This document shows positions 3,187-14,937 of a stretch of 64,000 nt of DNA, in pieces; position 1 is the first letter of the stretch, and every line of letters starts with the position of its first letter. The DNA is from Aurantiochytrium sp. KH105 (lineage: Eukaryota > Sar > Bigyra > Thraustochytrida > Thraustochytriidae): assembly GCA_003116975.1 (NCBI GenBank), contig BGKB01000064.1, positions 62,001 through 126,000 of the forward strand. The letters run 5' to 3'. A program made the position numbers and the translations under genes. The notes below the pieces were generated by a model. The model did no database searches, was not told the DNA's origin, and saw only the letters and a program-made list of their open reading frames with translations.

Positions 3187-6100
3187 TCACGCTGCTGCAT
3201 GCATCGAATTGGTACTCTCCAATTGGGCATGCATTTCGGTATTCATGCCGACCGCATCTGAAGCAGCGCCGCGGTGGTTGCCCTGCCCGTGCCGGCGCCG
3301 TCGAAAGATGAGAGAGGCTGCAGCAACGACCGCGACAACGCCCGCAGTCCCACCAAGCCCAATGCCAAGCATCGAAGAGTCGGCGTCGCTGCCATCATCA
3401 TCCTCGCTCTCCACATAAGACGAGGCGACGGCCGCATCGCTTGGAAGAACCCGAGCATAGGCGACTGCCACCGCAGCGCGCCGCTCCGAATCCGTTTGCG
3501 TGCCCCACTGGGCCAATGTCGCCGTGTCCTCGCCGTGCTCTGGCAGAGTAGGCACCACAAAAGTCCTGCTCACGCTGCCATCAGCGAGCGCACGACGACG
3601 GCCTCCTGCGGTGATCACCTCTGCGACATTTCCGTGCAAGTCATGCACGCCTCGAAGCTCCATCGTGACGGTCGTGTTACTCCACAGCGCCACCGCAGCA
3701 GCGTCGGCAGTCTCCATCACGACCGTGAGGTCATACAGTCGCGAAGCACACGAAATGCTTGTTGTCGCGCTGAGCTCTCCCGAAGCGTCCGTGATGATCG
3801 CCTCGAGATCCGCGTGACCGCAATCCACAGGCTCATCGAAGCGAAAGTTCACCACTGGAAAAGAGGATGTCGCCACACGCACCTTGCTCGCGGGCGCCCA
3901 GGCCATGAGAACGGGCCCGATGGTGTCCAAAACGCCAAGTCGCTGACTCGACCGCGTCGAGCCCACGCTGCGGCCCTCGACCGCGCACGAAGCACGGAGC
4001 TCGAACAAGAATCTTCCTTGCGACGAGGTCTTCGCCTGCAGCTCAGCAGCAGTCAGATCCATCGCCGTGCTCCCGGCCGCAAAGCTCGTAACTTCGAACC
4101 AGTCCCCAAACGTCGCAGACCCATCGTACCGAGCCGCCCACAGCGACACCGTCGAGGTCACCGACGAGTCTGAAGCGGATCCGCGCGAGAATGCAATCGG
4201 AGTCGTCGGCAAATCCGAAGTCAGCGCCCATGTGGCGGTGGCATCAGTGAGCGTTCCCGCCCAGCTGATCGTCGGACACGTCGAGGCCCAGTTGAGATCA
4301 AACGGCAACGTGCGCGATACTTCGTCGTCGCAGACCGAAGTGACTTCGATATTGACGGTCGTGGAGCGGATGCGCTCATCGAGACGCTCGTAAAAGACGG
4401 TTACTGGATGCTGGCGGCGAGCCTGCACATCAATCTCGACGATCTGGTTCAGACTTGTGCCAGCGACGCTGTACACGATGCCGCCCGTTGCGCTCTGCGC
4501 GTCCACCGAGATCGCAAGAGTGACGTAGTCGCTGCTCACGGGCATCGAGGACGTGTCGATATAGAACGAGAAGCTGCCCGTGTTTTCGGTCAGCTCAATG
4601 GCCGGTTTCTCGTTGTACGTCAGAGCAATTACCTCACGGGCGTCGGTGCCAGGAATGTTGGGGCACGAGGTGAGCCCGCCGCACACGCGGTAGACGTGCG
4701 TACCGCTAAAAGGAGACCGGAAGAGCTCGACACAAATCGAGTTGCCGTCGCCGGCCAGCGCAAGATGCGTCGAAATCGACGTCGACATGGCCTCTCCTTC
4801 GGTCGTCACTCGCTCCACTGAGGTGGTCTGCACAACGGAAGTCTCGTACGACACGTTAGATGTAGCCTTCAGCGACACAAACCAAAAGTGGACAGAAGCA
4901 CTCGCGGAGACGCTCAGAGACACGTCGCGACTACTTGAGCTGGAGAACGACTCGTAGTCGACAACGGAGTCGACCTGGCCAGACACGCTGTCGACAATGT
5001 CAATGTCAGCGTCGCTGATCTGGATGCGATTGACCGCAGTCGTCGTCCCTTCGAATAGATTTTGGCCGGCAAGATCAATCGGATTCTCGAGCGCCGCCAA
5101 GTAATCGTTTTCCCAATGCTGGAGCAGAGACAGCCAGCGCTCGCGCTCAAGTCTAGCCTGTGCGACCAGATCCGCCGACTCTGCATTGTCGCCTTCAACC
5201 TCGATGGTCCGTTCAATCAGGTCCAAAGAGTCCTCGCACGCGCGTCGCGTTTGGACCACCATCGACGCAACCTGATTGCCCCAGGCGATCGAGTCTGCAG
5301 AGGTCACCATGCACGTCTCTTCGTCAAACGACAGGTGCACTGCCTCCGAGAACTGCGCCACGCTGCCGATGAACATGACCTGATCTACCGCACTGCCCGT
5401 CTCAGCGCTCGACGTGGTGAGCGTGAAAGAGCGAGATGTGGTGCTCACTTCAACCTGATCGTCGTAAGACTCGACCTGCGTGTCGACTTCGCCGAAGCCA
5501 AGGCCAGCAGAGGTTTCCACAGAAGCGAATGACGAGCCTACGCTTGCGGAGACCGTGACCCCGGTGTGCATTCCCGATTCTGTCTCCACAATCGCCTGCG
5601 CCGAAGTCTGCACAGCAAACGAGCCCTCAAAGCTCATGCTCGCATACGATCCATCGCCTCCAGGAGGAGCGTAGAGGTAGTGCAGCGGAATAGAGTCCTC
5701 GCTGGAGAAGACGATGGTCGAGCTCTCGCGAATGCTCTTGTCGCCGAGAATAAGAGCGTCAAGGGTTGCTTCGAGACCGGCGGTCGCATTGTCCCAGACC
5801 CTGGGGTTCCGCATGCTAAAGTCCACCGAGCGGATGAACTCGGCAACCCCATGAGAAGCGCCGTCTCCAAGCGGTCGCTGCGGCTCTCCACACACAACGC
5901 TCGCAGTCGTGACGGATCGGTTCTCGTGGTTGACCTCGGCAACTGCAAACGCGAACTCGCAGGGAGCATTCGGATCGCAATCCACATCGATCTCAGGCGC
6001 CAGATTGCTGACCACCTTCACGACTGTCCCGCCAGGAAGAGTTCCGCACGTTTCGCTCTTGTACGTCTGCGTCGATGTGATGCGAATCGGGATCGTGCGG

Positions 6101-8877
6101 CCTCCCTCGATGATGGTGTCAAAGGGCACTTCAGTGCACGATGCCGTACTGAAGAAAAGATTTCCGGCACGCACAGACAAGTCGATCACGGGGATGGGCT
6201 GATGGAGCATCTCCATGAGGCCATCCTCCATATCCAGACTCGCGTATCTTGCGTCACTCGTGGGGAACTGGTATTCGAAGCTCGTCTGCACGTCTTCGTC
6301 GTCCGGAAAGTCAAGACTCAAAGTATAGTTGGCAGCAGGCAATGTCCAATCGTTGATGACATCCAAAGTGGTCCGAGCGAGCTCCACGCCAGGACATGCG
6401 TGTACTTGTATGGCAACATCTACGGTGCCCACGCCGAAATCGCACTCGGTTGCGCCAGCTCGAAGGCGGAGAACACGCTGCGTCGTGTCGCTGATCTCGA
6501 GGTTGGCAAGGTTGTCGCTAACCTGTCGCCCCGAGCCGCTCAGCAACGCACTTGTGACGGCGTCGCCGGAGTCGGTGGCATCAAAAGTATGATCGCCGTA
6601 GGTGAGGACAAGTTGCGTCTGCGTGTTGATGGGCACATTGAGCGCAAAGCTACCATTGGTCATGGACGAGGTCGTATAAGCAATGACTTGATCAGTTGCG
6701 ACGTTGATTGCTTCCACGAGAACGCCTCCAACGTGGCAAGAGCCGGCACTTTCAAAAGTCTGCGTAATCGTTCCTTCAAGCGTGCGGCTGAGAATGTCGA
6801 CGAGGCGGAGCTGGCGTGTCTCCAGGTGCGTGAGGGAGAATATTGCAGGAAGGCTTCGTACGTTGTCCACGGTACACTCGACATCATCATCGTCTGGGCA
6901 GAGCTTGATGTCGGTCTCAATGCCCGTCTTGGACGCGCTCACAAAGGTGATGCTTGAGTCAACGCCATGGAACGCCACGTTGTCGTCGAAGATCTCGAGC
7001 GTGACCTCCCCAGTCGCATCGGTAACAGCCTGAAACGTGTCTTCGCTCGTGCCGATCTTGTATTCCAGAACAACGTCTTGGGACCCGGAGGCGGCATTGA
7101 TATCGTTCACAAGAACGTTACCACGGGCAACGAGACTGATCGTTTGCGTCACGCAGGACCGTGCAGACTCTTTGGGCTCATCTGGTTGCGTCTCGGATAG
7201 ATCGGCCCAAGTCAAGGGCTTGTTCAGCTCGCGCCAGGTGAGCTCCAAACAGGCCGTGAACTCGTCACCTACACGCAAGTTCGGATCGAGAGCGAGTCGA
7301 GGAGCGTTGTCTCCAGCCGAGCCGCAATCGGCGAGATAGTTTGTCCAACTTGTCGCAGTCGAGTCTCCCACGCTGCTGTTGACGACGAGTCTGTACTCTT
7401 CGACAATCGAGGTTCTAATCATCTCGGTGAAGGAAGATTTGACATGAACAGAGTCCTGGGCTGCGGAGCTCGCGGGCGGTACAGAAAGGACCAGTTTCCA
7501 GCCACCTGCTTGCTCTGCGTTCGTAGGAATTGCATACGCAGAGAAATCGAAGTCGGTAGGCTCCTCAAAAGCCAGCGCGCTGAGCTTTTCGCCAAGAGCG
7601 GAGTCCCGGCACACGTGGTGCTCGCAGCCAGTACCGCTATAATCAGCGTCGCAGCGATTCTCACTGCTTGGATCCAAGGGCGTGGATAGACCCTCGACGC
7701 CGCAGAACTTCCCAGCCTCGCATGCAGTCTTTTCACCCTCGTAGCAATAGTAGCCCTTGGGACAGATGTAGCAGCTGTCAATGCCGTTGGCTGGATCGGT
7801 GTCGCTGATGTAGTATCCGGGAAAGCAGGTGTGGCAATCTTTCATTCCTGCGTAGATGTCTTCGTTGGGCGATTCATATTCATTCTTGTAGGCGTCTGCA
7901 GTTTTGAGCCAGCATCGGTTGCGATTCCGGGCATAGACCCACACCACACAATCAGACTCCTCTTGGCACCAGCGACGGCACTCGTGGGGATCAGAAAAGC
8001 CAGTGTCAGTTTTCAGATCAGCACCTGGCCAGTTGTAATGGTGTTTCATGCATCCAGGTGCTTGGTAAAGGTTGGCCACGTCCCGGGCTACGTTTTCCTT
8101 GTTGAAGTCTTTGTCGCAGTACATGTTACCTGTGACTCTTGTATTGCCCTGCGAAGGGTTCACATTTGTGAAGCTCCCACTGGTACCTGGTCTCTTCTGA
8201 TGCACCGTGCATGCGTTGTCTTTTGAATTGTACTCATAGGCGATGCAAGGGTAGTGATTTCCATTCGCTGCCCATCCTTGATTGGCCCTTGACCAGCTGC
8301 AAATGTAGGGCGAGCTCTTCACTTGAACGTTGAGCTTGTCCGGGGAGTTCCCATTCTTCTCGTGGAGGTACTGCGACTGGATGTAATCTTTGTACTCGAA
8401 TCTCGCTTTGACGGGAAGGTAATTGGAACTAGCGTCTCCCTGGTGCACAGTGCCTTTGTAGCACGGCCATGCTTTCCAACTTTCTGTATTGTCATGTATG
8501 AACGAGTTATAGTCGCCGGTCCTTCTCGCAGTACAAGACTCTCCTGGGTCTGCGAACTGTGCAACTTGCAGGTAGCAGCCTTCGTGGCGAAAGGCAGCAT
8601 CCCAACCATCGTTGTTCCAGAGCTCTATACCTCGACGCTTTGATGCTTTCCACCAGTTCATGCACTTGTCGCGACATTGACCTGCGCTTGATGCTCCAAC
8701 ATTCTTCATGACACTATTGCTAGGCCAGCTCGGCGTTCCTAGTATAGCACATCCAGGAAACTTGTTGATGATGGCTTGACGGTTGGCGACTTTCTGGATC
8801 TTGAGTCCATGCGTGCTGACGGCGCCAAGAAGATTGGCGACGAGAGCCCATAGCACGAATGCAAACATCTCTCTCAT
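3187..8877 (-). CDS. Giant secreted/type I surface protein with PAN-like and Cys-rich modules
   Basis: Single-exon gene for a 1,896-aa protein. Residues 1-22 form a signal peptide (hydrophobic FAFVLWALVANLLGAV). The next ~350 residues hold about three Cys-rich modules resembling PAN/apple folds, for example SDPHECRRWCQEESDC. Then comes a Cys-rich stretch typical of ephrin/TNFR-like repeats (CFPGYY, CYICPKGYYC, CEAGKFC) and an EGF-like end. A very long, beta-rich, Thr/Ser/Val-rich ectodomain follows, then one transmembrane helix near residues 1833-1857 (GGTAGVVAVVAAASLIF) and a basic RRRR stop-transfer. The cytoplasmic tail is about 38 residues. I infer an adhesion or surface-receptor role; no enzyme motif is seen. 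A copia LTR begins 284 bp upstream of the start codon. Confidence 0.85.
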   Translation of the reverse strand: MREMFAFVLWALVANLLGAVSTHGLKIQKVANRQAIINKFPGCAILGTPSWPSNSVMKNVGASSAGQCRDKCMNWWKASKRRGIELWNNDGWDAAFRHEGCYLQVAQFADPGESCTARRTGDYNSFIHDNTESWKAWPCYKGTVHQGDASSNYLPVKARFEYKDYIQSQYLHEKNGNSPDKLNVQVKSSPYICSWSRANQGWAANGNHYPCIAYEYNSKDNACTVHQKRPGTSGSFTNVNPSQGNTRVTGNMYCDKDFNKENVARDVANLYQAPGCMKHHYNWPGADLKTDTGFSDPHECRRWCQEESDCVVWVYARNRNRCWLKTADAYKNEYESPNEDIYAGMKDCHTCFPGYYISDTDPANGIDSCYICPKGYYCYEGEKTACEAGKFCGVEGLSTPLDPSSENRCDADYSGTGCEHHVCRDSALGEKLSALAFEEPTDFDFSAYAIPTNAEQAGGWKLVLSVPPASSAAQDSVHVKSSFTEMIRTSIVEEYRLVVNSSVGDSTATSWTNYLADCGSAGDNAPRLALDPNLRVGDEFTACLELTWRELNKPLTWADLSETQPDEPKESARSCVTQTISLVARGNVLVNDINAASGSQDVVLEYKIGTSEDTFQAVTDATGEVTLEIFDDNVAFHGVDSSITFVSASKTGIETDIKLCPDDDDVECTVDNVRSLPAIFSLTHLETRQLRLVDILSRTLEGTITQTFESAGSCHVGGVLVEAINVATDQVIAYTTSSMTNGSFALNVPINTQTQLVLTYGDHTFDATDSGDAVTSALLSGSGRQVSDNLANLEISDTTQRVLRLRAGATECDFGVGTVDVAIQVHACPGVELARTTLDVINDWTLPAANYTLSLDFPDDEDVQTSFEYQFPTSDARYASLDMEDGLMEMLHQPIPVIDLSVRAGNLFFSTASCTEVPFDTIIEGGRTIPIRITSTQTYKSETCGTLPGGTVVKVVSNLAPEIDVDCDPNAPCEFAFAVAEVNHENRSVTTASVVCGEPQRPLGDGASHGVAEFIRSVDFSMRNPRVWDNATAGLEATLDALILGDKSIRESSTIVFSSEDSIPLHYLYAPPGGDGSYASMSFEGSFAVQTSAQAIVETESGMHTGVTVSASVGSSFASVETSAGLGFGEVDTQVESYDDQVEVSTTSRSFTLTTSSAETGSAVDQVMFIGSVAQFSEAVHLSFDEETCMVTSADSIAWGNQVASMVVQTRRACEDSLDLIERTIEVEGDNAESADLVAQARLERERWLSLLQHWENDYLAALENPIDLAGQNLFEGTTTAVNRIQISDADIDIVDSVSGQVDSVVDYESFSSSSSRDVSLSVSASASVHFWFVSLKATSNVSYETSVVQTTSVERVTTEGEAMSTSISTHLALAGDGNSICVELFRSPFSGTHVYRVCGGLTSCPNIPGTDAREVIALTYNEKPAIELTENTGSFSFYIDTSSMPVSSDYVTLAISVDAQSATGGIVYSVAGTSLNQIVEIDVQARRQHPVTVFYERLDERIRSTTVNIEVTSVCDDEVSRTLPFDLNWASTCPTISWAGTLTDATATWALTSDLPTTPIAFSRGSASDSSVTSTVSLWAARYDGSATFGDWFEVTSFAAGSTAMDLTAAELQAKTSSQGRFLFELRASCAVEGRSVGSTRSSQRLGVLDTIGPVLMAWAPASKVRVATSSFPVVNFRFDEPVDCGHADLEAIITDASGELSATTSISCASRLYDLTVVMETADAAAVALWSNTTVTMELRGVHDLHGNVAEVITAGGRRRALADGSVSRTFVVPTLPEHGEDTATLAQWGTQTDSERRAAVAVAYARVLPSDAAVASSYVESEDDDGSDADSSMLGIGLGGTAGVVAVVAAASLIFRRRRHGQGNHRGAASDAVGMNTEMHAQLESTNSMHAAA

Positions 8878-9156: not shown

Positions 9157-9161
9157 CGCGG
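9157..9161. repeat. Target-site duplication, left copy (CGCGG)
   Basis: The five bases CGCGG directly precede the 5' LTR and recur directly after the 3' LTR at 14933-14937. Five bp is the usual Ty1/copia duplication length. Confidence 0.9.
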
Positions 9162-9500
9162 TGTCGTTATCCAGGGTCTGAGGAGAGTAAAGACGAAGAC
9201 ATACAAATACGAACAGTGGCCACAGTGCTAGTCTTACCGTTCTTCCAAGAAGAGGATATCCTCTACTCCTGCTGAGCCAGTACGAGTCAAGAAGCCGTTA
9301 GGGCTAGGGTTCTCGAGGACCCTGCCTGATACCATGGCCGAGCAAGAACCACAAGCTACCAGGGCTAGGGTTCCACGGACCCTGGCCACAAAGCAAGATC
9401 GCTCAGCAAACCAATCCCTCAAAAACAGATACAACTACATCGTACTAAGCAACAAGCATCTTACAAGGACTCTCAGTCAGTCCTTCCTATATCAACAACA
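9162..9500 (+). repeat. 5' LTR
   Basis: 339 bp, TGTCGTTATC...ATCAACAACA. It contains two copies of a GGGCTAGGGTTC...GGACCCTG motif (about 9300-9324 and 9361-9384). In each, AGGGT and ACCCT arms could pair, so LTR RNA may form two small hairpins. The short ATG frame at 9334 is not considered a gene. Confidence 0.95.
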
Positions 9501-9512
9501 GGTTATGGGCCC
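9501..9512 (+). other. Primer-binding site, half-tRNA-iMet type
   Basis: GGTTATGGGCCC starts on the first base after the 5' LTR. It is the reverse complement of the conserved eukaryotic initiator-tRNA anticodon region (GGGCCCATAACC). This is the arrangement known from Drosophila copia, where an internal fragment of tRNA-iMet, not its 3' CCA end, primes minus-strand synthesis. The host's own tRNA is not in the window, so the match is to the generally conserved sequence. Confidence 0.85.
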
Positions 9513-9847
9513 CAATTCTCACGCTCAAGCGGGAGTCCGCCCTCCCGCGAGCTACCCGTCCTCGGCACGCGTCCGCCCGTGCTTCCCCCCTCTCGCGTGA
9601 TCCGTTCGCGCATCGCACATCGTACGCTCTGTCCGTACACCCCCCCCTTTTTTCCCTTTACACGCTCTGTCCGTGACGCCGACAGTCACAGTCGCAGTCG
9701 GCCCGGCTCTGCACGTCCCTGCCCGTGCCCGCCCTTTCTTCTCTCTCGCGTGCGCGCTCTGCCCGCGCTCTTCCGCTATCTCTCACGCGCGCCTCTGCCC
9801 GCGCTCTTCCGCTCTTTCTTTCATCTTTCTTTCTTTTCCCATCCGAG

Positions 9848-12800
9848 ATGGCAGAAACAGTCCCGTCTGACGATCAGGCGTCAACGGCGACCATACCTCA
9901 GGTCAAGTACAAACCGAATAATCAGACACACACGAGTCGCATTGACCGCGTGTACAACAACAGCAACATGCTCCCTCCTTACACGACCGATTGGCACCAA
10001 CTCCGAATTGACTTTGACAACACTTTCGCGCACCTCAGCCTCAGTGTTGCGGAGCTCGAGGCGTGGGACGGCTCCACAGCCATCCTCTCCAAGGCTCAGG
10101 ACGAATGCATTCATTGGATGCTTATAACGGTTTTCCGTGGCACGCGCGAAGCCACCGTCATCAACCGCAGCACGCGCACGCGCAGTGGCCTTCTCGCTTG
10201 GAACGCTCTCACCGCCCACTTCTCCGAGAGTGAGATGACGCAACAAGTCCGTCGGTGGCGTGAAATGATCGACCTGATGTACCGCATCCCTTCCCCCAAG
10301 CGCACCACGACAGCGGCCATGGCAGATCACCTCGAGGAGATCCATAAGGCTGTCGATCGACTTGAACGCTCCGGCGTACAATGCCAACACATGGCGGGCC
10401 TCACCATGCTTGACGCCGTTTCCGCGCACTTGGACGACCCGATGGCCGAGATCAAATCGATCAGGGATCTTTCTATCGCAAATCTCGGCAAACGCTTGCT
10501 CTCCAGGACGGAAAACACAGACATTTTCCGACACGCCGCTCTGCGCACTCACATGCCCAACAATACAGGAGCCCACCACGTGCGGCCTGCCCTTGGCGCT
10601 GTCCCAGAGCCTCCCTCGCCGGTCGTGATGGCGTCCGTTCCTTCAGGTTTCGCCAACACTCACTCTTTTCGGCAAAAGGGCAAGTCCTCCGCACCGACGA
10701 CATCACTCATCTGCCACAAGTGCGGCCAATTTGACCATTTGTCTCGCGACTGTCCTGGCCTCCCCCCCGGCTACCGTTGTGCCCGCTGTGACAAGCCCGG
10801 GCACGTCGTAACTGTTTGTCGCTCCCCACCTACACGGGAGTATATCCAAAGAAGTCAAGGAGTTTCATCTCAGTATTCTGCTCCAGACCGTTGCTCCCCG
10901 CAACAGGACGTGGCTTCCAACCTGACTTTGTCTTCATTGTCTGGTCCTTCCCTCCACGCGCCACTTGTTGGGTCGGCTCTCATCACCCCGACTACCCCCA
11001 TTCTGGACAGTGGGGCCGCGGTGTCCGTGGTCCCTCGTCGCGGAGATCTTGCCAGCCTTGACCCAGACCGACTTCCACTCAGGGTTCGAGGTCTCGGTGG
11101 TCTCTCCACCCAAGCGTCGTTTACCGGCACCTATCGGCCTGCCCGACTCTCCAACGCGCCGCATCTTCCCGCTCAAGTACATGAGACAGCCCCTGCCATT
11201 CTGGAAAGCATGGGTGACTTAATCCGTGCCGGCGCAACCTTCTCCTTGACAGCGGATGCCTCCAGCATGACTCTAGATCATCAAACGTACCCCCTTACTT
11301 TCGACAATGGGAACGTACTCACTTACGCGGACTCGCCGCCCCCTCAGCTGTCGGCATCCACTCCAGTCGTCGCCGGAGTCGTAACCCCACTCGAAGCCCA
11401 TCGGCGATGTGGTCATCAAGCTTTTTCTGCACTTCCGTCCACCGCTCACACAGTGAAAGGAATTACGGTCCCCGCCTGGCCGGATGTTCCTCCGTCTTGC
11501 CCCGCATGCGCGATCGGCAACCTGCCCGCACGGCCAGCACGCAAAGCTCCAACGCCGCCGAAGGCATCGAAACCTCGTCAACGATGTCACGTCGACCTGC
11601 TGGGCCGCAAAACTCCGTCCTCTCGAGGAAATCAGTACTGCATTCTCTTCACGGACGAGTTTTCCAAATATCGCGCCGCATTCTTTTACCCTACATGCTC
11701 TGGCGTCACCCTCGTACATGCGATCAAGGCATGGCGCCGTCAATGGCTCACCGCCCTGCGAGGGGATCCCACGCCGGAAGGACTCGAGATTGTCGCCGAC
11801 GCGGCCTTCGACATCGATATTGTCCGTGAGCAGCTCGACTTGTACAATTGGACACTCACCTTAGCCACCCCTTTCGAACACGCCACGCACGGCATCGCCG
11901 AACGTAGTGTCGGTATTGTCGCGCAAAAGGCTCGCACCCTTCTCGCCGACTGTCGTCTTGGTCCCCGCTTCTGGGACGATGCCGTGGCTTGCGCCGTCTG
12001 GACCATCAATCGCATACCTCATTCGCGCACGAAGCGGATTCCCGTGGCCGCACACGGCATCGGTCCCGCTGACCTCTCCCCCGCCCGCCGCTTTGGCACG
12101 TTGGTGGCTTTCAAAGACCACTTGGCTAATAAGGGTGGCCTCGCGCCCACTTCGCGTCTGGGCATCTTTTTGGGCATCTCGACTCGACACTCTTTCGGCA
12201 CCGCACGTATCCTTGCGCTCGACACTGACAAGATCGTGCACGCGCGCAGCTATCGCGCTCTTGACTACCTGCCCTCGCCGGCAGAGTCCGCGCACGCCAT
12301 CAACCAACGTCTGCTCGACGGAAACTTGCCTGACTGGCCGCTTCCCTCATCCAACGAAGATTCAGAGGATTTCGATCTAATCACTCAGCCTCTGCGCGCG
12401 TCGCCTGCCGAGCGCGCCCCCGACGCGGACGCCTCCGGCGCGCCGGCGGAACCCGAGCCGCTGCACAAGGTGCTGCCGGACGAGGATGGCACGTCCGCAC
12501 CCACCGTTCCCGAGGCGACTGCCCACGAGGTGCCGGCATCGCCAGCATTCCTACCAGAAGAGATCTCGCCCGAAACGGACCCGCTTGCGACGTCGACACC
12601 CGCGTCTCCAGCACACCACGACGCCGACACCGACGAGGCGCCTCGGGCCTACGGTCTTCGTCCGGAACTTCCCACGGATGCCGACGCGGACGACCCGGTC
12701 TTCCATGATCTCGGCCCTGTCAACGACAGGCAGCGGCCCATCGTTCTTGGCAACCGTGTCTATCATCTCGGGGAACATCATCGTGTCCACGATCTTCCGG

Positions 12801-14707
12801 CCCGTACGACCCGGTCCGGAACACGTTTTGCTTCTGCACCAAATGCTGGTCCGTCGCACATCCTTCTTGCCACGACCCAGCACGAGGCGATCCCCGCAGG
12901 GGTTATGTCCCAGCAAAACGATCCAAGTGCTAGGCATGTCTACATTGATCCAGGTACTAGAATTCGCGAACCCCGTCACGAAGGAGAACTTGCATACCTC
13001 AGCAAGGACGAACAGCTCATCTGGAAACGCGCAACAGACGAAGAAATGGCCAACTTCCAGGACGATCATGTCTTGGAACCAGTCGACAAATCGGAGACCC
13101 GAGGCGTGGTTATGGATATGATGAAGATCTACAAGCTGAAAGCAGCCGATGAAGACGGACGCCGACGCGCCAAAGTTCGTTTCGTCGTACGAGGTGATCA
13201 GCAAAAAGACGTGGACGAAGAATTAAGCTCTCCAGTGGTCTCTCCAAGCTCGGTACGAATGCAAATCGTGCACGCTCTCACGCATGGCCACGACTTTGCC
13301 ATCTTTGACATTCGCTCAGCATTTCTCTCAAGCACAGTCCACGATCGCGATTACTTCGTCCGCATCCGTCAAGACGACGGATTCGCCTATTTCAGACTAC
13401 TACGAGGTGCTTACGGGTTGCCCAGTGCTCCTGCGCGGTATCACGCTGAGTTTACACATGCCATGTCACGCGCCGGCCTTGAACCGTGCCCCGATGACCC
13501 GTGCCTCTTCCGACACGAGACAAGTGGCCTTCTCGTCAGTACACACGTTGATGATGGACTCGTCACCGCCCCTTCGGAGGTCATACAGGATCTCAAACTC
13601 TCTCTCGAATCCTATTTCGGAGCGGACAAGGTCACCTTCAAATCAGTCGAAGATGGCACGCGCACGCGTTTCCTGGGAGCACATTTGGTGGTGAACCGCG
13701 CAGACAAGGTTGCGAGTATGGATCACGCTGACTTCATAGCGGAACTACTTGACCTCACGAGCATGGACAAGTGCTCGCCTCTTGAACACCCTGGCACAAG
13801 TGATGATCTACCCTTTCCTAAGGACATCGACGCAGACGAGCTGTACCAGTCTCTTGTGGGAAGCCTCCAATGGATTGTGTCGACTCGTCCGGACTGCGCC
13901 TTCGCTGTGAAGGAACTCGGCAGACATAATCGTGCAGCCACGGAAGTACATTTCAAGGCAGTCAAGAAAGTCCTGAGATACCTCGCAGGGACTCGACACG
14001 TCGGGCTCGTCCTACGAGGTGCCTCTCACCCCAGCCTCCTTGAGCTCTGTGCCTGGTCAGACGCGTCGTTCGCACCCTGCAAGTACACTCGCCGAAGCAC
14101 CTCTGGATACATCATCGCCTTGAACGGATGCACCATTGAAGCCAAGTCTCTGACCGAACACACGGTGTCGCTGTCATCCACTGAAGCGGAGCTCTACGCT
14201 GCAAACGACGCAGCCAAATCCATTCTCTGGCACCGTCGAATCTTCCAATTCATGGGCTACTCCCTTCGTGAACCCACATCTTTGTTCGTGGATAACACGG
14301 CAGTTGAGATCATTGCCTCTTCCGTGGGGCCTACCAGCAGAAGCAAGCACGTGGACATACGTCGTCACCACCTTCATCAGCTAGTGGACGAGAAGATCAT
14401 TCAACTCCATCACGAAGACACCTCCTCAAACCCGGCCGATGTATTAAGCAAGTACCTGTCGAAGGATCCGTTTCACATGCACTCCTTCCGCCTGTGTCTC
14501 GGGTTCTTGGGCCACGCCGAACCCCAAGAAGCAAAGACATGGGCTAAAGCTTTCTCCGGAATCCGACTCTCCGACAAATACTTCCTCGAGGCGTGTCGTT
14601 ATCCAGGGTCTGAGGAGAGTAAAGACGAAGACATACAAATACGAACAGTGGCCACAGTGCTAGTCTTACCGTTCTTCCAAGAAGAGGATATCCTCTACTC
14701 CTGCTGA
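9848..14707 (+). CDS. Copia gag-pol polyprotein
   Basis: 1,619 aa in one frame, with no gag/pol frameshift. From the ATG at 9848 (MAETVPSDDQ) there is a gag region and then two zinc knuckles: CHKCGQFDHLSRDC from residue 289 and CARCDKPGHVVTVC soon after. The protease active site is DSGA, with Asp at residue 387. The integrase zinc-binding motif is HRRCGH...CPAC near residue 517, followed by the core (HVDLLG, an Asp-containing segment, and IAERSVG). Reverse transcriptase carries HVDD at 1233-1236, where most copia elements have YVDD. RNase H has the SDASF, RRSTSGY and SSTEAEL blocks. The last ~37 residues are encoded by the 3' LTR, where the stop lies. An in-frame non-ATG extension reaches 9725 but is Arg/Ala-rich and unlikely to be used. 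Confidence 0.96.
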   Translation: MAETVPSDDQASTATIPQVKYKPNNQTHTSRIDRVYNNSNMLPPYTTDWHQLRIDFDNTFAHLSLSVAELEAWDGSTAILSKAQDECIHWMLITVFRGTREATVINRSTRTRSGLLAWNALTAHFSESEMTQQVRRWREMIDLMYRIPSPKRTTTAAMADHLEEIHKAVDRLERSGVQCQHMAGLTMLDAVSAHLDDPMAEIKSIRDLSIANLGKRLLSRTENTDIFRHAALRTHMPNNTGAHHVRPALGAVPEPPSPVVMASVPSGFANTHSFRQKGKSSAPTTSLICHKCGQFDHLSRDCPGLPPGYRCARCDKPGHVVTVCRSPPTREYIQRSQGVSSQYSAPDRCSPQQDVASNLTLSSLSGPSLHAPLVGSALITPTTPILDSGAAVSVVPRRGDLASLDPDRLPLRVRGLGGLSTQASFTGTYRPARLSNAPHLPAQVHETAPAILESMGDLIRAGATFSLTADASSMTLDHQTYPLTFDNGNVLTYADSPPPQLSASTPVVAGVVTPLEAHRRCGHQAFSALPSTAHTVKGITVPAWPDVPPSCPACAIGNLPARPARKAPTPPKASKPRQRCHVDLLGRKTPSSRGNQYCILFTDEFSKYRAAFFYPTCSGVTLVHAIKAWRRQWLTALRGDPTPEGLEIVADAAFDIDIVREQLDLYNWTLTLATPFEHATHGIAERSVGIVAQKARTLLADCRLGPRFWDDAVACAVWTINRIPHSRTKRIPVAAHGIGPADLSPARRFGTLVAFKDHLANKGGLAPTSRLGIFLGISTRHSFGTARILALDTDKIVHARSYRALDYLPSPAESAHAINQRLLDGNLPDWPLPSSNEDSEDFDLITQPLRASPAERAPDADASGAPAEPEPLHKVLPDEDGTSAPTVPEATAHEVPASPAFLPEEISPETDPLATSTPASPAHHDADTDEAPRAYGLRPELPTDADADDPVFHDLGPVNDRQRPIVLGNRVYHLGEHHRVHDLPARTTRSGTRFASAPNAGPSHILLATTQHEAIPAGVMSQQNDPSARHVYIDPGTRIREPRHEGELAYLSKDEQLIWKRATDEEMANFQDDHVLEPVDKSETRGVVMDMMKIYKLKAADEDGRRRAKVRFVVRGDQQKDVDEELSSPVVSPSSVRMQIVHALTHGHDFAIFDIRSAFLSSTVHDRDYFVRIRQDDGFAYFRLLRGAYGLPSAPARYHAEFTHAMSRAGLEPCPDDPCLFRHETSGLLVSTHVDDGLVTAPSEVIQDLKLSLESYFGADKVTFKSVEDGTRTRFLGAHLVVNRADKVASMDHADFIAELLDLTSMDKCSPLEHPGTSDDLPFPKDIDADELYQSLVGSLQWIVSTRPDCAFAVKELGRHNRAATEVHFKAVKKVLRYLAGTRHVGLVLRGASHPSLLELCAWSDASFAPCKYTRRSTSGYIIALNGCTIEAKSLTEHTVSLSSTEAELYAANDAAKSILWHRRIFQFMGYSLREPTSLFVDNTAVEIIASSVGPTSRSKHVDIRRHHLHQLVDEKIIQLHHEDTSSNPADVLSKYLSKDPFHMHSFRLCLGFLGHAEPQEAKTWAKAFSGIRLSDKYFLEACRYPGSEESKDEDIQIRTVATVLVLPFFQEEDILYSC

Positions 14708-14932
14708 GCCAGTACGAGTCAAGAAGCCGTTAGGGCTAGGGTTCTCGAGGACCCTGCCTGATACCATGGCCGAGCAAGAACCACAAGCTACCAGGGCTAG
14801 GGTTCCACGGACCCTGGCCACAAAGCAAGATCGCTCAGCAAACCAATCCCTCAAAAACAGATACAACTACATCGTACTAAGCAACAAGCATCTTACAAGG
14901 ACTCTCAGTCAGTCCTTCCTATATCAACAACA
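14594..14932 (+). repeat. 3' LTR
   Basis: 339 bp and identical by reading to 9162-9500. The gag-pol frame runs through its first 114 bases. The bases just upstream (ending CTCGAGGCG) contain no obvious polypurine tract. Confidence 0.95.
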
Positions 14933-14937
14933 CGCGG
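14933..14937. repeat. Target-site duplication, right copy (CGCGG)
   Basis: Matches the five bases at 9157-9161 exactly. Confidence 0.9.

Follow-up and report, generated by a model that had tools for sequence, protein, structure and literature searches.

Which molecule primes reverse transcription of the LTR retrotransposon at positions 9162–14932 of the window, i.e. of the whole 64,000-nucleotide stretch of DNA analysed here? An earlier note on this DNA had described a complete and recent copia element primed by an internal fragment of the initiator tRNA. As judged from sequence, we consider it very likely that this is a recently inserted, autonomous element of the Ty1/copia order that uses the host initiator tRNA (tRNA-iMet), as a 5′ half, to prime its reverse transcription.

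Anatomy of the element

The element shows copia-order organization, with an LTR pair, a CGCGG target duplication and a single open gag-pol frame. The two 339 bp LTRs (9162–9500 and 14594–14932, plus strand) have TG...CA termini and are identical at 339 of 339 aligned positions, and CGCGG is present on both flanks (9157–9161 and 14933–14937). Gag-pol is open from the ATG at 9848 to the stop codon at 14707 (plus strand, 1619 aa), ending 114 bp into the 3′ LTR. Identical LTRs, a perfect 5 bp duplication and an open frame had all been claimed before, and each was borne out here.

All coding features lie on the plus strand, in the copia order Gag–protease–integrase–reverse transcriptase (RT)–RNase H. 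Two CCHC zinc knuckles of the Gag nucleocapsid (10712–10819; aa 289 and 311), matched by Pfam zf-CCHC above cut-off, are followed by the protease motif DSGA (11006–11017; aa 387) and by the integrase HHCC motif with the first D of the DDE core (11399–11942; HHCC and HVDLL, aa 518 and 581); the second D and the E of this core were identified by eye, not by motif match. The RT is of the copia type (13124–13789; VDD at aa 1231), scoring 49.8 bits against a cut-off of 31.6 with Pfam RVT_2 (E 4.7e-13), and the RNase H motif STEAELYA lies at 14177–14200 (aa 1444). Matches to zf-CCHC_2, zf-CCHC_3 and SH3_retrovirus remained below cut-off, and the Pfam integrase core gave no match in gag-pol at E up to 0.1. 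Among PDB sequences a single match was obtained, to the integrase chain 7z0h_W (E 8.7e-05). RVT_2, the TG...CA LTR pair and the 5 bp target duplication together place the element in the Ty1/copia superfamily. A search of IMG/VR with its RT stretch matched no relatives.

A polypurine tract is usual, though not decisive, for this superfamily. Here, the 3′ LTR is preceded by GAGGCG (14588–14593, plus strand), and a scan of the last 60 nt of the internal region (14534–14593 in the window) revealed no run of at least 5 purines, either in the window element or in the second full copy of the family on contig C332. Elements of two other families do have such a tract at this place, of 9 purines on C185 and of 15 on C346.

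Two further observations concern the surroundings. The LTR contains three TAGGG units resembling telomere repeats (9299–9370; LTR positions 138, 144 and 205). A minus-strand frame of 1896 aa (3187–8877) starts 285 bp from the element, which lies upstream of it, perhaps in its promoter.

The primer-binding site and the host initiator tRNA

The primer-binding site, GGTTATGGGCCCCA (9501–9514, plus strand), starts immediately after the 5′ LTR. All 14 nt are exactly complementary to linear nt 26–39 of the host tRNA-iMet; as the anticodon occupies linear positions 33–35, this corresponds to nt 27–40 in standard numbering. The site thus complements the anticodon arm and begins opposite nt 40, as half-tRNA sites do. 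A 12 nt match to this arm had been proposed previously; the match itself holds, and its length is now 14 nt.

The host genes were located via the 12-mer. Two intronless copies on contig C72 and two on C149 are identical in sequence and carry GGGCCCATAACC. They encode A1-U72 and the T-loop AUCGAAA, which we take to be hallmarks of initiator tRNAs and hence to mark these genes as iMet. Beside the two intronless genes on C72 lie iMet genes with an anticodon-loop intron (locus L002, 2238–2348 and 2812–2918), and the C149 copies have two similar genes near them, judged by position in locus L004. For fungi, primer tRNA genes with introns have been noted (PMC10886601).

The 12-mer has seven exact places in the 76,034,492-base assembly (the window element, the four iMet genes, an element on C164 and a site on C168), and its reversed pattern none. 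The 14-mer has six, lacking only the C168 site. With up to two mismatches the 14-mer gave 201 matches and its reversed pattern 151, so only exact matches are informative. The C168 occurrence was rejected as a further primer site and taken as chance, with no tRNA and no repeat pair of at least 60 nt within 9.5 kb. The suggested search of the genome for the same site therefore yielded one further element, that on C164, of another family; the C332 copy has an altered site.

To rank possible primers, we scored the pairing between the 24 nt that follow the LTR and 74 candidates: from each of 37 tRNA sequences, one half reaching to nt 40 and one 3′ end. The sequences came from ARAGORN results on selected loci, an incomplete set in which some tRNAs are mitochondrial, near-duplicates of others or unspliced; it had 38 distinct members, of which one was dropped as its anticodon could not be placed. 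A family-based tRNA search, with scores for 63 of 1392 candidates, did not list the iMet genes. As controls we drew 600 host 24-mers from six loci, some with solo LTRs, and scored the 569 without N. The primer site was read in five elements (window, C332, C164, C185 and C346). An RT search had given 13 matches, from which those on C361, C151, C176, C351, C355 (two rows) and C141 and the second on C346 were left out; C79 had no LTR pair within 9 kb.

Among the 74 candidates, the iMet half was the best primer for the window element (−33.7 kcal/mol), for C164 (−33.5) and for C332 (−20.9), and the Lys(CUU) half for C185 (−27.0) and C346 (−32.1). None of the 569 controls paired as well with any candidate as did the sites of the window element, C164, C185 and C346; six of 569 equalled C332. 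Pairing beyond nt 27 did not rise above shuffled sequences in the iMet group (173, 106 and 164 of 500 shuffles as good for the window element, C164 and C332 respectively), and for the two Lys-type sites 2 and 18 of 500 shuffles were as good.

These results bear on two other modes of priming. Conventional priming from a tRNA's 3′ CCA end, the iMet match being fortuitous, would be the mode of most LTR elements (PMC6317226, PMC10886601), and the tested set lacks part of the host tRNAs. It is nevertheless very unlikely here: none of the 37 tested 3′ ends surpasses the iMet half, the six exact places of the 14-mer are all iMet genes or LTR ends, and two unrelated families have this 14-mer in common. 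Self-priming, in which an element uses a piece of its own 5′ leader, has been proposed for Tf1 and for the TAR lineage of plants and described in some copia lineages (PMC6317226); it is hardly credible for the window element, whose LTR complements the site's first 20 nt over at most 4 nt. We favour the iMet half because of its exact 14 nt complement, with six places in 76 Mb, because it ranks best of 74 candidates with 0 of 569 controls as good, because the C164 element, of another family, has the same 14-mer, and because the site begins opposite nt 40, where half-tRNA elements are stated to start (PMC1181622). Of the two findings that the earlier note had named as speaking against its reading, neither turned up: the host iMet genes do contain GGGCCCATAACC, and among the 37 tRNA sequences tested no 3′ end fits better.

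Insertion age and a second full copy

At the corresponding insertion point on contig C40 the element is absent and CGCGG is present once. The left flank of C40 matches the window at 95.1% over 1859 bp, ending 54 bp before the insertion, and then at 92% over the 26 nt up to the insertion point; pieces on the right side can be aligned in several ways because tandem repeats are abundant there. C40 and the window locus may be two haplotypes or two paralogues.

Of the nine matches returned by an LTR search of the genome, two are the window LTRs, two belong to the full copy on C332 and five are solo or partial, at C23 (99% alike), C103 (83%), C84 (81%), and C15 and C6 (45 nt each). The window element and C332 were the only two full family copies found in the assembly. 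The 5 bp target duplications read are CGCGG in the window, GTGCA at C332, GAGAC at C23 and TTCAA at both C103 and C84.

The C332 internal region is 97.9% identical to that of the window element (94 mismatches in 5101 columns), and its LTRs, 371 bp including a tandem duplication, are identical to each other. This duplication comprises 39 nt of the LTR start and is present in both LTRs (locus L047, 1791–1829, and the matching part of the 3′ LTR). In the 3′ LTR it adds 13 in-frame codons to gag-pol, which is open over 1632 aa. Over 1619 codons, 54 synonymous and 26 nonsynonymous changes separate the two frames (dN/dS 0.15), a pattern indicative of purifying selection, and therefore both full copies derive from working copies.

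The primer site of C332 (L047, 2162–2176) differs from that of the window element by two substitutions and one insertion. With 11 substitutions in the 250 nt bin around it, the entire non-coding leader has diverged further than the genes. The change may reflect decay after insertion, or miscopying of modified tRNA bases. A primer switch was considered and rejected: the variant 12-mer occurs at five places, with no tRNA gene in any of the 3 kb loci, and no other tRNA among those found fits the variant site.

The window element could be a recent yet dead copy, its site an ancestral trace of half-tRNA priming in a family that has become immobile; the presence of only two full copies, the altered site in the other one and the missing polypurine tract would agree with this. 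We regard it as unlikely, given identical LTR pairs and open frames in both full copies, the dN/dS of 0.15 and the absence of the window element at the corresponding C40 place. The LTR identity (339/339), the CGCGG duplication, the empty C40 site and the dN/dS ratio argue instead for an autonomous and recent element, much as the earlier note had it. The iMet-half reading is weakened by the altered C332 site, whose pairing is equalled by 6 of 569 controls, by the lack of a polypurine tract and by the incomplete tRNA set.

Other copia families in the same genome

The C164 element (locus L051, 4701–6704) has 256 nt identical repeats as LTRs, with a 14-mer behind the LTR that is identical to that of the window element. 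It retains a Gag-like frame and a shortened pol, most of which is missing; the assembly has one N here, and the flanks hold no matching target duplication. It is a deleted or misassembled copy.

In the elements on C185 and C346 the LTRs (97% alike and identical over 291 nt respectively) end in AATA. Over about 155 aa, their RTs are 27% (C185) and 30% (C346) identical to that of the window family. The sites behind these LTRs, GATTGAGAGTC in C185 (locus L065, 1546) and GATTAAAGAGTC in C346 (locus L066, 299), depart from perfect complementarity to the host tRNA-Lys(CUU), one of them by a G.U pair and the other by a bulge. AATA followed by such a Lys-type site occurs at 10 genome junctions (six and four), with flanks read at two of the 10, and at none with the reversed control. 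By their complementarity, two tRNAs thus appear to be in use, iMet and Lys(CUU), both up to nt 40; the Lys(CUU) assignment is the weaker of the two. A tRNA-Glu(CUC)-like primer for C185 was also considered; the pattern search was empty, and an intron at 37/38 would conceal such a gene.

Mitochondrial code of the host

The host had earlier been guessed to be a stramenopile. In the code of thraustochytrid mitochondria (NCBI table 23), TTA is a stop codon. We inspected by eye 10 gene frames of the mitochondrial contig C366 (loci L055–L057; 30,000 of 30,955 bases), leaving out smaller frames that hold TTA. In eight frames any TTA preceded the start, coincided with the end or followed it; two frames lacked it, and in none did it lie inside the gene body. 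As TTA behaves as a stop, the stramenopile reading of the host is supported.

Discussion

We propose that the host tRNA-iMet would be cut at nt 40 to give a 5′ half, whose anticodon arm (nt 27–40) would pair with the 14 nt site next to the 5′ LTR, and that minus-strand synthesis would begin at its 3′ end, nt 40, as for the half-tRNA elements copia and Ty5. Anatomy, the empty site, the match to host tRNA genes and purifying selection are sequence-based; from them we infer cleavage at nt 40, priming and present-day activity. Half-tRNA priming by iMet is thus probably used in this thraustochytrid-like host.

The mechanism had been called best known from insects, a view that finds no support here. 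In the literature, copia, 1731, Ty5 and Osser are known to use half-tRNA primers; synthesis starts from tRNA nt 40, and the users are not monophyletic (PMC1181622). RNase P has been held responsible for the 3′ end of the Ty5 primer (PMC5371799). In fungi, Copia families have anticodon-loop sites of Tyr, Ile, Asp, Asn and iMet, iMet being commonest (PMC10886601), and the site of fungal FunCo1 fits an internal part of tRNA-Lys (PMC5445492). Plant lineages with this priming are Osser, Bryco, Gymco-II and Bianca (PMC6317226), and about 2% of plant elements are described as using half-molecules of tRNA-Met or tRNA-Ile. Searches of open-licence papers, with consultation of those cited here and of PMC7466962, PMC8515867, PMC3587641, PMC2774666 and PMC7179369, brought up no statement on half-tRNA priming in stramenopiles.

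In domain order and primer site, the features by which we liken them, the window element resembles Hemivirus (Drosophila copia and 1731, yeast Ty5, Osser): both have RVT_2 in copia order and, right after the LTR, a complement of the iMet anticodon arm starting at nt 40 (PMC1181622). It differs in its thraustochytrid-like host and in the lack of a polypurine tract. The final two bases of its match agree with the stem of the host tRNA; the Drosophila iMet stem differs at these two bases. Elements with half-molecule sites surveyed in PMC6317226 likewise most often use iMet; they belong to another host group, and the present genome also has families whose sites fit the Lys(CUU) half. The fungal Copia/Helenus elements share the use of several tRNAs via the anticodon arm, 5 bp duplications and the prevalence of iMet (PMC10886601), and they and FunCo1, likened here by the description of their primer sites, also come from another host group. 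The diatom CoDi elements are copia-order elements of stramenopiles; in the searched text of the CoDi paper (PMC2806351) the word 'tRNA' has no occurrence. Half-tRNA priming in insects, in Ty5 of yeast and in further fungi, as well as in a number of plant lineages, is therefore already known; what is new is the host group, together with two further copia families that fit a tRNA-Lys(CUU) half ending at nt 40.

A broader proposal, which we advance tentatively and hold to be doubtful, is that a cut in the anticodon arm at nt 40 is the general mode of copia priming in thraustochytrids. At least two tRNAs, iMet and Lys(CUU), would then be cut by one host or element activity; that their halves share a 3′ end would point to one activity cutting different tRNAs at one place. 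The window family would in addition have lost its polypurine tract and start its plus strand from another primer.

A stramenopile-like case with the host tRNA gene at hand and a 14 nt match widens the range of half-tRNA priming beyond animals, fungi and plants, and suggests that this mode is either old within Ty1/copia or of repeated origin. With four families in one genome apparently using two tRNAs with a common 3′ end, the agent that cuts these tRNAs becomes testable in a culturable group.
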